Origin: a virus
IMG/VR virus record: IMGVR_UViG_3300038701_001414
Coordinates: 1-28,528 of that record
Length of the DNA: 28,528 nucleotides
Reading direction: 5' to 3' (one strand)
Of this stretch, positions 18,714 to 25,408 are shown one piece after another. The notes beneath the pieces are model-generated. The model searched no databases and was not told the origin of the DNA. It saw nothing but the letters and a program-made list of their open reading frames with translations. Positions within the stretch are counted from its first letter, which is position 1. Each line of letters opens with the position of its first letter. The position numbers and the translations under genes are program-made.

Positions 18714-18743
18714 ATGATAACAAATGATGATATAAGATGACAA
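18714..18743 (-). promoter_or_regulatory. Promoter for ParB-terminase unit
   Basis: On the minus strand TTGTCA (18738-18743), an 18-bp spacer and TATCAT (18714-18719), with TG at the extended -10. It begins just after the terminator at 18.75 kb, a terminator-then-promoter junction between two units. Transcription would start only about 8-10 bases before the ATG at 18699. Confidence 0.6.
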
Positions 18744-18744
18744 T

Positions 18745-18772
18745 AAAAAAGAAAGGGGCAGTTAGCCCCTTT
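18745..18772 (-). terminator. Rho-independent terminator of the early unit
   Basis: On the minus strand AAAGGGGC and GCCCCTTT form a perfect 8-bp stem with loop TAACT, followed by CTTTTTT. It lies a few bases after the stop of the coiled-coil gene. The opposite strand also has a T-rich end, so it may work both ways. Confidence 0.9.
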
Positions 18773-22047: not shown

Positions 22048-23325
22048 TTATTTTTGATTAGCTTGATTTTTTGCGATGGCTTCTTGTCTGCCTTTCTCCA
22101 TCATTTCTCTCCTCGAGTTTCCAGTCTCTTTGTCATCGTCGATGACTTCTCCTCCTAGATCAGAGGCAACATCTGCTGCTGATCTTTCTTGTTTAGCCTC
22201 CGCTGGAGCGGGCTCCGTGGATGCCTCAGCCTGACTTGCGTCAGCACCTTGTGCAGCATCTTGCCCGCTACCAGTAGAAGCAGTATCAACTTTCCCATCA
22301 GCTAGATCCTCAGCAATCTGCTGATCTTTTTCACTCCAACCTCCATCTTTGGGAGGAGTCTCGTCACTCTCCCCCTGTGGTGGTGTCCCTTGTGAATCAT
22401 CAGATGAGTCGTTGTCATTTTTAGGTTCCTCTTTCTTCAGCTCTTCAGTACCAGCGAATAGATCAGCAATTGTTTCGAAGTTTTCCTCTACTAGATCGAA
22501 GCCTGTCCACTCTTTCACTTTGATCGGGAATGTTTCTCCATCCATAGGATTCAGTCCGAGCCGTCTCGCTTCTTTCACAATTCGCCTTTTAATAGCAGCA
22601 TAATCCTTTGGAGCGGGAGCCCCTGATTCATTCCATTCAGCGAGTCGCTTCCCATATTCCTCTGTGATAATTTCTTCAGGTTTATCTTGAAATAGACCAG
22701 TCCGATCTTTCGTCGACTGAGCAAGATGTGAGACAGCCAGCTCGAAAGCGATAGTCATCTCATAGTCGAACCCCTCTCGAGTGATGGCTTTCATTCCCAT
22801 CTTCTCAGGGACATTGACTGTTTTTCCTTTCCGCTCTTTTTGATTCATCACATATTCTTGTTTCGATCTTCCACAACAAATGACATGAACAGATGAGTCA
22901 AGGATTGAGTTGATGAATTTGTTATGTCGTGGAGTCATTTCTCCCCACACTGTAAATTTGTTTCTCCCATCAACTGATCGCTGCTCGACCATTTCAAGGA
23001 TTCCTCCCTCTCCTTGCCATTCATGAGTGATTGAGTCGATGATGATGACTTCCATCCCAGCCTCTTCAGCTGCATGTATAGCCTCAATATATCTCTCAGG
23101 AGTGAATGGAGGCGGAAGAGTGATCACGTTGTAGTCTCCCAGATGAGAATACAGATCAGCTGATCCATGCTCAGTGTCAATGACACATACTTTATTCAAA
23201 TCGCCGACGAGTCCTTTTGCCAGCATTAAGGCTGAATAAGTTTTCCCTGATCCACTTGGACCAAAGATTCCGACTCTTAGCTTTGCTTGTTTTCGCTCTG
23301 CTTTTCGCAATTGTAGTGTAGACAT
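22048..23325 (-). CDS. RecA-like ATPase of the Sak4/AAA_24 type
   Basis: 425 residues. Walker A GPSGSGKT (22-29), an Asp-Thr-Glu-His-Gly segment (VIDTEHGSADLY), Walker B VIIIDSIT (93-100) followed by HEW, and MTPRHNKFI in the position of the sensor region. This is the single-domain RecA-like family found in many phages near recombination genes; the related Sak4 proteins act in single-strand annealing or recombination. Residues about 280-425 form a disordered, acidic and Gln/Ala-rich tail, which may bind partner proteins. It carries the conserved leader and follows the small DNA-binding gene. Confidence 0.85.
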   Translation of the reverse strand: MSTLQLRKAERKQAKLRVGIFGPSGSGKTYSALMLAKGLVGDLNKVCVIDTEHGSADLYSHLGDYNVITLPPPFTPERYIEAIHAAEEAGMEVIIIDSITHEWQGEGGILEMVEQRSVDGRNKFTVWGEMTPRHNKFINSILDSSVHVICCGRSKQEYVMNQKERKGKTVNVPEKMGMKAITREGFDYEMTIAFELAVSHLAQSTKDRTGLFQDKPEEIITEEYGKRLAEWNESGAPAPKDYAAIKRRIVKEARRLGLNPMDGETFPIKVKEWTGFDLVEENFETIADLFAGTEELKKEEPKNDNDSSDDSQGTPPQGESDETPPKDGGWSEKDQQIAEDLADGKVDTASTGSGQDAAQGADASQAEASTEPAPAEAKQERSAADVASDLGGEVIDDDKETGNSRREMMEKGRQEAIAKNQANQK

Positions 23326-23337: not shown

Positions 23338-23547
23338 TTATTTGTTAAATTTTTTTATAAATTTGTTGACGTTGCTCACGGGGATCATGTATCTCGTCCC
23401 TCGACCTGTTCCCCATTTGATAGGTTTCAGATCTGACCAGTGTCGCTTGACGAATTCTCTGACTCCGATATAAGACTTTGGAAATCCCTCAGGCAAGTGA
23501 TCTCGAAGCTCTTTCATCGTCAGATATTCTCTGTCCGTTTCGATCAT
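23338..23547 (-). CDS. Small DNA-binding protein (excisionase/MerR-like helix-turn-helix)
   Basis: 69 residues. The order EYLTMKELRDHLPEGFPKSY..REFVKRH..WG.G.RYMI...V..FIKKF is that of short winged helix-turn-helix proteins used as excisionases or early regulators. First gene after the promoter with the palindromic spacer, so it may regulate its own unit. No integrase in view, so a regulatory role is the more likely. Confidence 0.6.
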   Translation of the reverse strand: MIETDREYLTMKELRDHLPEGFPKSYIGVREFVKRHWSDLKPIKWGTGRGTRYMIPVSNVNKFIKKFNK

Positions 23548-23580
23548 ATTTTTGAAAGATTATGTTTCTTATCTGTTGTT

Positions 23581-23609
23581 ATGATATATCATGTTCATGA
23601 TAGTGTCAA
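23581..23609 (-). promoter_or_regulatory. Early promoter with palindromic operator in its spacer
   Basis: On the minus strand TTGACA (23604-23609), 17 bp, TATCAT (23581-23586). The spacer begins with C and then holds TATCATGAACATGATA (23587-23602), an inverted repeat with 7-bp arms and a 2-bp centre. A second palindrome ATGATATATCAT (23581-23592) covers the -10. A dimeric repressor bound there would block RNA polymerase. Drives 23547 and the genes to 18777. Confidence 0.75.
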
Positions 23610-23615
23610 CTGATG

Positions 23616-23624
23616 TTATCCACA
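23616..23624 (+). promoter_or_regulatory. DnaA box
   Basis: TTATCCACA on the plus strand is a perfect DnaA box, between the early promoter and the plus-strand nuclease gene. A near match (ATATCCACA) lies at 25309-25317. One perfect box alone does not prove an origin; host DnaA could regulate the promoter. Confidence 0.45.
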
Positions 23625-23644
23625 TGCAAGATGATGACTTGTTG

Positions 23645-23650
23645 TAGAAT
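23645..23650 (+). promoter_or_regulatory. Candidate -10 for leaderless nuclease mRNA
   Basis: TAGAAT ends 6 bases before the ATG of the VRR-NUC gene, so transcription would begin at or next to the start codon. A good -35 is not seen 17 bp upstream. Supports, but does not prove, a leaderless mRNA. Confidence 0.3.
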
Positions 23651-23656
23651 GATCTC

Positions 23657-23983
23657 ATGAAAGAAAAAGATTTGCAAAAAATGATTTGCGAGTATCTGGA
23701 CATCAAAAAAGCCATGAGGAAATTGTGGTATATGAGAGTCAACTCAGGGATGCTCCCAGTAAGTTCCCCTAAATATAAAAATAGAATGATCAGGCTTGCT
23801 CCCAAAGGGACCAGCGATCTGATCATCTTTCTTGATGGTGGCAAATGTTTATTTGTAGAATTGAAATCCAGCAAAGGAAAGCAGACAGAATATCAAGAGC
23901 TATTTGAAAAGGAGATCTCCCAGCTAGGATATGAATATCATTTGATCAATTGCTTTGAAGATTTTGAGAAGCTGATCAAGTAG
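23657..23983 (+). CDS. VRR-NUC domain nuclease (only plus-strand gene)
   Basis: 108 residues. The domain's three conserved motifs are present: G-T-S-D at about 51-54 (PKGTSDLIIFL), E-x-K at about 68-70 (CLFVELKSSKG) and Gln at about 76-80. This is a PD-(D/E)XK-superfamily fold, stand-alone and short as in many phages, where it acts on branched DNA. It is divergent from the early unit with the control region between, and convergent with the Zn-ribbon gene (stop codons 1 base apart). No Shine-Dalgarno is seen. Confidence 0.85.
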   Translation: MKEKDLQKMICEYLDIKKAMRKLWYMRVNSGMLPVSSPKYKNRMIRLAPKGTSDLIIFLDGGKCLFVELKSSKGKQTEYQELFEKEISQLGYEYHLINCFEDFEKLIK

Positions 23984-24239: not shown

Positions 24240-24286
24240 AAACATTTGAATCCAAAGGCTTGCAGAGGTTTTGAGTTTAAGTGTTG

Positions 24287-24302
24287 CCCCCCCTACCCCC
24301 CC
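24287..24302 (-). repeat. G7-TA-G7 run
   Basis: On the minus strand GGGGGGGTAGGGGGGG. Two long G-runs can fold into a four-stranded structure with very short loops. It lies in the leader of the Zn-ribbon gene, about 48 bases before its ATG, next to CATGATTTTCATG, a small inverted repeat. Confidence 0.7.
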
Positions 24303-24321
24303 ATGAAAATCATGACAGATA

Positions 24322-24486
24322 TTAGCTGATCCACCTCTTGATCTCTTTCAATAGAGAGAGGCTGCTTGTCTTAGTTCGTGAGACATGGTGTCTGTCTCCT
24401 CGAGTCGTAGCATTTAAGATTCTACTCATTCGATCCAAAAGGAATTGAGGATCGTTTGAAGCGAGGCTCTTGTATCCCGCCGCCAC
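24322..24486 (-). CDS. Possible 54-codon ORF in non-coding block
   Basis: A GTG-started frame (VAAGYKSLASNDPQFLLDRM...) ending LSLLKEIKRWIS. The helical, amphipathic look and the end are protein-like, but there is no ATG or leader, and the start falls in a structured region. It overlaps another, Cys-rich frame. Tentative. Confidence 0.25.
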   Translation of the reverse strand: MAAGYKSLASNDPQFLLDRMSRILNATTRGDRHHVSRTKTSSLSLLKEIKRWIS

Positions 24487-24523
24487 ACTTATGTTGCCCT
24501 TGCGGTTTGGGATTCATGTGTAT

Positions 24524-24550
24524 AAAAAAATCCCCGCAGACATTGCGAGG
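24524..24550 (-). terminator. Rho-independent terminator, minus strand
   Basis: CCTCGCA and TGCGGGG form a 7-bp stem (one U-G pair) with loop ATGTC, followed by ATTTTTTT. It lies about 150 bases downstream of the next terminator, so a separate short transcript could end here. Confidence 0.7.
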
Positions 24551-24600
24551 TTTCAAAAGATTTGGTATTCTTTCCTCGTTATGTAAGCAATAACAATGAT

Positions 24601-24644
24601 AACATCTCGCCCGACAATTGTCGATGCGGGATGTTTTTGTTTTT
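24601..24644 (+). terminator. Rho-independent terminator, plus strand
   Basis: AACATCTCGC and GCGGGATGTT form a 10-bp stem (one U-G pair), with a second small palindrome (CGACAATTGTCG) in the loop, followed by TTTGTTTTT. No plus-strand gene precedes it; a plus-strand RNA from 24.25-24.6 kb would end here. Confidence 0.65.
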
Positions 24645-24701
24645 GTGGAAAGGTTGTGTATAATCTGATCAGTGTTGACATCGCCTTGAATCACAAGAAA
24701 C

Positions 24702-24732
24702 AAAAAAGCCCCTTTTTCCGAGGGGCTTTTTT
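24702..24732. terminator. Bidirectional terminator
   Basis: AAAAAAGCCCCT and AGGGGCTTTTTT form a long stem around loop TTTTCCG, with T-runs on both sides. It directly follows the stop of the small zinc gene at 24734. Confidence 0.92.
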
Positions 24733-24733
24733 T

Positions 24734-24892
24734 TTATGCAGTGACAAGAGATCGAGAGGCTTTTAATTGGCTTTTGATCTTTTGCTCGCATTTGCCTTTC
24801 TTTTCACAGAGAGGCACTTTTGATAATCCGTAAACAGTCCGAGTGACGAGAGAGGCTTTTGCCTCCCCGTCACAGATTAGACATTGATTCAT
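24734..24892 (-). CDS. Small Zn-binding protein, 52 residues
   Basis: Read directly from the gap. MNQCLICDGEAKASLVTRTV...PLCEKKGKCEQKIK has a C-x2-C pair and a C-x5-C pair, a plausible zinc site, with a basic end. It is the second gene after the strong promoter at 25.3 kb, and its stop is followed at once by a terminator. Confidence 0.65.
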   Translation of the reverse strand: MNQCLICDGEAKASLVTRTVYGLSKVPLCEKKGKCEQKIKSQLKASRSLVTA

Positions 24893-24909: not shown

Positions 24910-25248
24910 TTAATTATATTCTACCTCAACCATCAGACAAGTGCTTGCTCTCCCATCATAGGAGCTGTCTGAGTAGTATGTGCTGAATTCGACAGGGAGA
25001 TTCAAGACTTTCTCTGTGATCTTTCTTTGAATAGCATTCTCTTGATCTCGGCATTTGTAACATCTTCGATTTTCTTCACATACACAATCAGCGGGAGTCT
25101 CTGGCTTATCAGCTAGGACCTTGATGCAGATCCATGAGCCATCTTCTCGGACGCTGAGATTTTTCCATCCCCACTCGTCTTTGAGCTGCTTCTTAATGTA
25201 AAGAGATCTGTTTTGATCGAAGCCGATCTTTTTCTCAGTTGTTTTCAT
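24910..25248 (-). CDS. Early Cys-rich protein of unknown function
   Basis: 112 residues, first gene behind the strongest promoter in the window. N-terminal part: MKTTEKKIGFDQNRSLYIKK and a Trp-rich segment (DEWGWKNLSVREDGSWICIK). The middle has DCVCEENRRCYKCRDQ, four Cys in C-x-C and C-x2-C pairs, probably one zinc site. A late segment (VEFSTYYSDSSYDGRAST) is polar. It could be a very early host-control protein. No family recognised. Confidence 0.6.
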   Translation of the reverse strand: MKTTEKKIGFDQNRSLYIKKQLKDEWGWKNLSVREDGSWICIKVLADKPETPADCVCEENRRCYKCRDQENAIQRKITEKVLNLPVEFSTYYSDSSYDGRASTCLMVEVEYN

Positions 25249-25258
25249 ATCAGAGTAC
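25246..25258 (-). promoter_or_regulatory. Conserved 5' leader motif, copy 3
   Basis: Minus-strand GTACTCTGATATG, one base different from the copies before 22035 and 23325, again preceded by an AATAA stretch and ending in the start codon. Confidence 0.5.
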
Positions 25259-25269
25259 TTATTGATTAT

Positions 25270-25304
25270 GTATATACTATAGCATACTTTAATATACTTG
25301 TCAA
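25270..25304 (-). promoter_or_regulatory. Strong sigma70 promoter with three 10-bp repeats
   Basis: TTGACA (25299-25304), 17-bp spacer, TATAGT (25276-25281), with TG at the extended -10. From the last base of the -35 onward the strand reads AAGTATATTA, AAGTATGCTA, TAGTATATAC: three related repeats at exactly 10-bp spacing. They lie on one face of the helix, as for repressor or activator sites. Confidence 0.8.
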
Positions 25305-25349
25305 GTAGATATCCACAATACCCCTATAAACAAAGGGAGTTTGAAAAAA

Positions 25350-25408
25350 CTTAAGATTTTCTTAAGATTATCTGAACCTATCATTTGCTGTCATTTGTTA
25401 TCAAATGA
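25350..25408. repeat. Short direct and inverted repeats upstream of promoter
   Basis: CTTAAGATT occurs twice 11 bp apart (25350-25358 and 25361-25369). TCATTTG occurs twice 10 bp apart (25381-25387 and 25391-25397), and the second is followed after TTAT by its inverse CAAATGA (25402-25408). The block is A/T-rich and has no gene; it may be a regulator site or a small origin element. Confidence 0.55.

Follow-up and report, generated by a model that had tools for sequence, protein, structure and literature searches.

The early unit and the divergent nuclease gene

The window analysed here (28,528 bp) is a whole virus record without end repeats. One gene runs off its left end and open frames run off its right end, which identifies the record as a fragment. 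An Rfam search matched no family and a tRNA search found none. On the minus strand a tightly packed unit of early genes opens with a gene for a 69-aa protein (23338-23547), continues with a second gene encoding an AAA_24/Sak4-like ATPase (phrog_1366; 22048-23325) and ends at a terminator-like hairpin with an 8-bp stem and a T run (18752-18772, minus strand).

The earlier note had described the first gene product as a small helix-turn-helix protein, a description that agrees with its predicted structure and found no support at the level of sequence families: neither Pfam nor NCBIfam gave a match, PHROG returned only a family of unknown function at E 0.02, and a sequence search of the PDB with this protein and with the nuclease described below gave no credible match. 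As no homologues were found for an alignment, the protein was modelled with AlphaFold2 from its single sequence (mean pLDDT 87). Foldseek alone yielded no match below E 0.001 for this model, so the fold class rests on a second look with VIA-align, in which the top rows comprised Pukovnik Xis, BldC, GIsul2 Xis and a P2 phage protein (Z 5.7-6.5); together with RdfS these are included in rows 1-6 (Z 5.5-6.5, over 51-60 residues). Since such Z scores are only middling, the assignment to the excisionase/BldC-like winged helices refers to a fold class and not to a function.

The divergent gene (23657-23983, plus strand) probably encodes a VRR-NUC type nuclease, matching PHROG families of endonucleases/Holliday junction resolvases at E 9e-14 and 1e-10. 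The Pfam VRR_NUC model scored 20.8 bits, against a cut-off of 23.8; residues D54, E68 and K70, corresponding to the catalytic D and ExK of VRR-NUC enzymes, are conserved in the compared locus L093. Among the plus-strand genes tested, this is the only one with family support.

Upstream of the nuclease gene, the proposal of a leaderless mRNA with its own -10 element was not supported. A TAGAAT hexamer is present at 23645-23650, ending 6 nt ahead of the ATG (23657); at spacings of 15-19 the best -35 matched only three of six bases, leaving no credible plus-strand promoter, one of an unusual type aside. Shine-Dalgarno sites were found by pattern for 1/32 genes of the window, the same as in the control; their lack is general in this phage, so that their absence at the nuclease gene is not special. 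As a separate observation, TAAT occurs 13-26 nt upstream of start codons in 9/32 genes of the window compared with 2 in the control, in L136 (6/19 vs 0) and L118 (5/19 vs 0 in the control), and also in L114 and L004. Some of these copies are the stop codon of the previous gene; the motif could represent near-leaderless -10 elements or a translation signal.

Predicted leftward promoters and the TATCAT array

The promoter P1 lies on the minus strand at 23581-23609 and consists of the -35 hexamer TTGACA (23609-23604), a 17-nt spacer (CTATCATGAACATGATA, 23603-23587) and the -10 hexamer TATCAT (23586-23581). In 11/12 bases it agrees with the sigma70-type arrangement, in which TTGACA and TATAAT precede a gene and are separated by 16-18 bp; a consensus-like promoter for the leftward genes had been proposed in the earlier note. 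The start codon of the first gene follows 33 nt downstream of the -10, and transcription is predicted to start near 23574. Overall, the promoter scan was no richer than shuffled sequence (24 sites vs 22.6), and the case for P1 therefore rests on its rank and on its position ahead of the gene that opens a tightly packed unit: only two sites in the whole record, P1 and P2, reach 11/12 matches with a spacing of 16-18 nt, and P1 is tied for the best promoter match in the right half of the window. The segment 23581-23609 is very likely a strong sigma70-type start point for the leftward early genes, as judged from its sequence.

The other of the two, P2 (TTGACA-17-TATAGT; 25276-25304, minus strand), lies upstream of the gene at 24910-25248, and its spacer contains 10-bp direct repeats that belong to a tandem repeat of period 10 (25272-25299). 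A weaker promoter-like site, P3 (TCGACA-17-TATCAT; 24596-24624, minus strand), matches the consensus in 10/12 bases. A terminator hairpin about 65 nt past P3 makes the minus-strand stretch 24590-24525 a candidate small RNA (folding z -2.2). A further hairpin, strong, bidirectional and terminator-like, with a 12-bp stem and A and T tracts, is found at 24702-24732, directly after the gene at 24734-24892. The 13-mer TCATTTGTTATCA occurs in the window at 18715-18727, in the promoter-like site that precedes 18699, and at 25391-25403, in a palindrome (TCATTTG-TTAT-CAAATGA) lying upstream of P2.

Three TATCAT half-sites are arranged over P1 as ATGATA-TATCAT-GTTC-ATGATA (23581-23602, without strand), an array that contains both of the palindromes reported earlier. 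The first of these, TATCATG-TT-CATGATA (16 bp; 23587-23602), fills 16 of the 17 bases of the P1 spacer and proved to be single-copy when the whole record was searched for it; the second, ATGATATATCAT (12 bp; 23581-23592), covers the -10. Because the 16-bp palindrome lies upstream of the predicted start, it would not form a hairpin in the P1 RNA. A perfect palindrome with arms of at least 7 and a gap of at most 4 was obtained in 7.6% of dinucleotide shuffles of the same 109-bp interval, so that the palindrome by itself is not significant. The repetition is rarer: one hexamer present three times within 22 bp was found in 14/2000 shuffles, and is unique to the array within the record. More widely, the 1,573 intergenic bases contain 9 copies of TATCAT/ATGATA, compared with 1.7 expected, and none of 3000 shuffles reached 9. 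This enrichment is partly post hoc, as TATCAT was picked for the test after P1 had been seen, and ATAACA and some A-rich hexamers have intergenic counts equal to or above it.

These figures bear on two readings of the array. The simpler one, which we regard as possible though on the whole doubtful, is a plain strong early promoter for which TATCAT is a preferred -10, while the palindrome and the extra copies are unbound by-products of AT-rich sequence. It accommodates the frequency of palindromes in shuffles and the use of three of the nine intergenic copies as -10 hexamers, at P1, at P3 (24624) and in TTGTCA-18-TATCAT at 18743. An exact scan of viral contigs for the -35 plus palindrome pattern also found no conserved copy elsewhere, and among the 65 loci compared the full 16-bp palindrome was present only in the window, with none in the genome loci added later. 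On the other hand, six intergenic copies lie outside recognised -10 hexamers (shuffle P = 0.005), and these, like the rare and unique triple half-site, count against it. An operator made of TATCAT half-sites over the P1 spacer and -10 is plausible from the sequence, and P1 is best read as a strong, repressible early promoter, a reading with a putative operator to which we give about an even chance.

Another reading of the short inverted arms and their small spacer, in a fragment whose genes include no recognised integrase, is a recombination site of the Xer/dif type or of another kind. The best dif match here reached 15/28, below the 16-17 found at several unrelated places in the window; the dif/Xer site was rejected, and we consider a recombination site of any kind extremely improbable.

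The product of the first gene is a candidate autoregulator of P1, given its modelled fold. RdfS, a member of the excisionase/BldC class, binds and represses its own promoter, and proteins of this class bind head-to-tail to direct repeats or to AT-rich DNA (PMC11963761). The precedent and the fold together support an autoregulator in general and not specifically one acting through the palindrome, which, given the preference for direct repeats, is not the expected target of the 69-aa protein. By analogy, a better fit to the class than the palindrome would be the direct repeats of 10 bp located in the spacer of P2 (25272-25299).

The earlier note had combined these elements, all of which are present at the positions it gave, into a regulated early switch. 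A lysogeny-type switch acting on both sides, on the early operon and on the nuclease gene, would account for the operator-like repeat that separates these divergent genes, and its repressor could be missing from the record, which is a fragment at both ends. This proposal was not supported: no usable -35 was found on the plus strand (3/6), neither a CI-like repressor nor an integrase was recognised among the genes of the fragment, and the divergent gene encodes an enzyme of DNA metabolism rather than a regulator. We consider such a switch improbable.

DnaA boxes and a candidate origin

The perfect DnaA box reported between the two divergent genes was recovered as TTATCCACA at 23616-23624 (plus strand), at about -42 to -50 of P1. 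In total five TTWTNCACA matches were identified in the record (1163, 23616, 24180, 24517 and 24655), four of them clustered within about 1.05 kb; four boxes within 1.1 kb were not obtained in any of 300 whole-window shuffles. Such a cluster of boxes is a feature of DnaA-dependent origins. P2 shows nearly the same arrangement as P1, with a DnaA-like box carrying one mismatch (ATATCCACA; 25309-25317, plus strand) upstream of its -35. Read on the minus strand, the boxes start 15 bp (P1) and 13 bp (P2) before the -35, and the joint shuffle probability of a box within 30 bp of both promoters is about 3e-5. At P3, TTATACACA and CTTTCCACA are found within 40 bp upstream. A DnaA link to P1 and P2 is thus statistically supported, with an action of DnaA on them predicted from these positions. 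Among 12 related records, a comparison of strong promoters with DnaA boxes did not reveal an arrangement like that of P1 and P2.

The noncoding interval 24246-24733 (without strand) contains the boxes at 24517 and 24655 (both minus) and is flanked by those at 23616, 24180 and 25309. No iterons were found in the cluster, so the interval can only be a candidate origin; with regard to an unwinding element, AT-rich patches were located at 23501-23700 and 25201-25400. A reading in which the region serves mainly replication control, with the boxes between P1 and P2 forming an origin and the promoters at its edges interacting with DnaA binding, is compatible with a repressible P1 and is, in our judgement, tentative and rather unlikely as the main account. 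The clustering and the DnaA-like boxes upstream of P1, P2 and P3 speak for it, as do related phages whose lambda O-like replication gene, accompanied by repeats, harbours paired DnaA boxes spaced 135 or 147 bp (the label is our own reading of the sequence, not a family match). The lack of iterons weighs against it, together with the position of box 24180 inside a gene, a GC skew without a clear turn at the cluster and the failure to identify an initiator. In two of the compared loci, L136 (2203-2769) and L145 (1455-1994), genes that resemble lambda O by eye and probably serve replication contain repeats flanked by paired DnaA boxes, and these are probable origins of their phages.

Proposed model, known systems and relatives

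Taken as a whole, we propose that P1 forms an early-operon control region repressed through TATCAT and subject to DnaA influence or joined to an origin, a model whose chances we judge to be evenly balanced. The RNA polymerase of the host, carrying the housekeeping sigma factor, would initiate at P1 near 23574, and the transcript would cover the 69-aa winged-helix gene, the ATPase gene and the downstream early genes up to the terminator at 18772-18752. A TATCAT-recognising protein, possibly a symmetric dimer as the palindrome suggests, would occupy the three half-sites over the spacer and the -10 and block the polymerase. Through the box just upstream of the -35, host DnaA may influence P1, or the box may form part of an origin dispersed over the interval from P1 to P2. 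A broader version, in which a phage-wide TATCAT operator and DnaA boxes set almost equally far upstream of the two strongest promoters tie early transcription to the replication-initiation state of an uncultured patescibacterial host, appears unlikely.

Early promoters with overlapping operators are known from lambda (PR/OR), 434 and P22. P1 resembles them as a strong promoter of the sigma70 type whose spacer and -10 carry symmetric repeats, with a small DNA-binding protein encoded first and a divergent gene nearby. It differs in that no divergent promoter or CI-like repressor was detected in the region, in an array of three hexamer half-sites where those phages have several full operators, and in a first gene with an excisionase fold rather than a Cro/XRE fold. 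The predicted fold of the 69-aa product is that of the excisionase, BldC and RdfS autoregulators (HTH_17 group); unlike their targets, which are direct repeats or AT-rich, P1 carries a palindrome, and direct repeats are found at the P2 spacer. The promoters of dnaA, mioC and nrdAB in E. coli are regulated by DnaA, and P1 resembles them in its DnaA box close upstream of the -35, whereas here phage genes are concerned, two promoters share the arrangement and DnaA binding is predicted. As it stands, the region is well formed and, for a phage control region, largely ordinary.

Protein scans with the ATPase, the nuclease, the terminase and the helix-turn-helix protein as queries, together with whole-record searches, revealed no close relative, no relative of the 69-aa protein and no locus sharing this combination of promoter and operator; the nuclease relatives are distant. 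Terminase relatives with 45-56% identity were found in assemblies named Taylorbacteria, Nomurabacteria, Kaiserbacteria, Peribacteria and other Patescibacteria, and also in Acidobacteriota (48-49% identity). The host is probably patescibacterial (CPR), an assignment to be taken as a lead given that metagenome bins can be wrong. The closest record with relatives of both terminase and ATPase (L066/G001) has a GC content of 57% and commoner Shine-Dalgarno sites than the window, and its phage may have a different host. To our knowledge, control signals in phages of Patescibacteria have scarcely been described. Provided that the half-sites and the paired DnaA boxes prove to be real, they would offer these phages' early promoters a concrete model open to testing, and would connect the early transcription of a phage with the DnaA of its host.

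A highly conserved leader was observed between a helix-turn-helix gene and an ATPase gene in L098 and L099 (genome G022, about 6310 down to 5923, minus strand; genome G023). It comprises a promoter (TTGACT-17-TATAAT), an early ACCAGTAAGGG and a terminator (CCCCTTACTGG...CAGTAAGGGG), and none of the Rfam families matched it at their cut-off. In G023 the leader is overlapped by a short open frame. Judging from the sequences, ACCAGTAAGGG may be able to base-pair with the stem of the terminator, in the manner of an attenuator.
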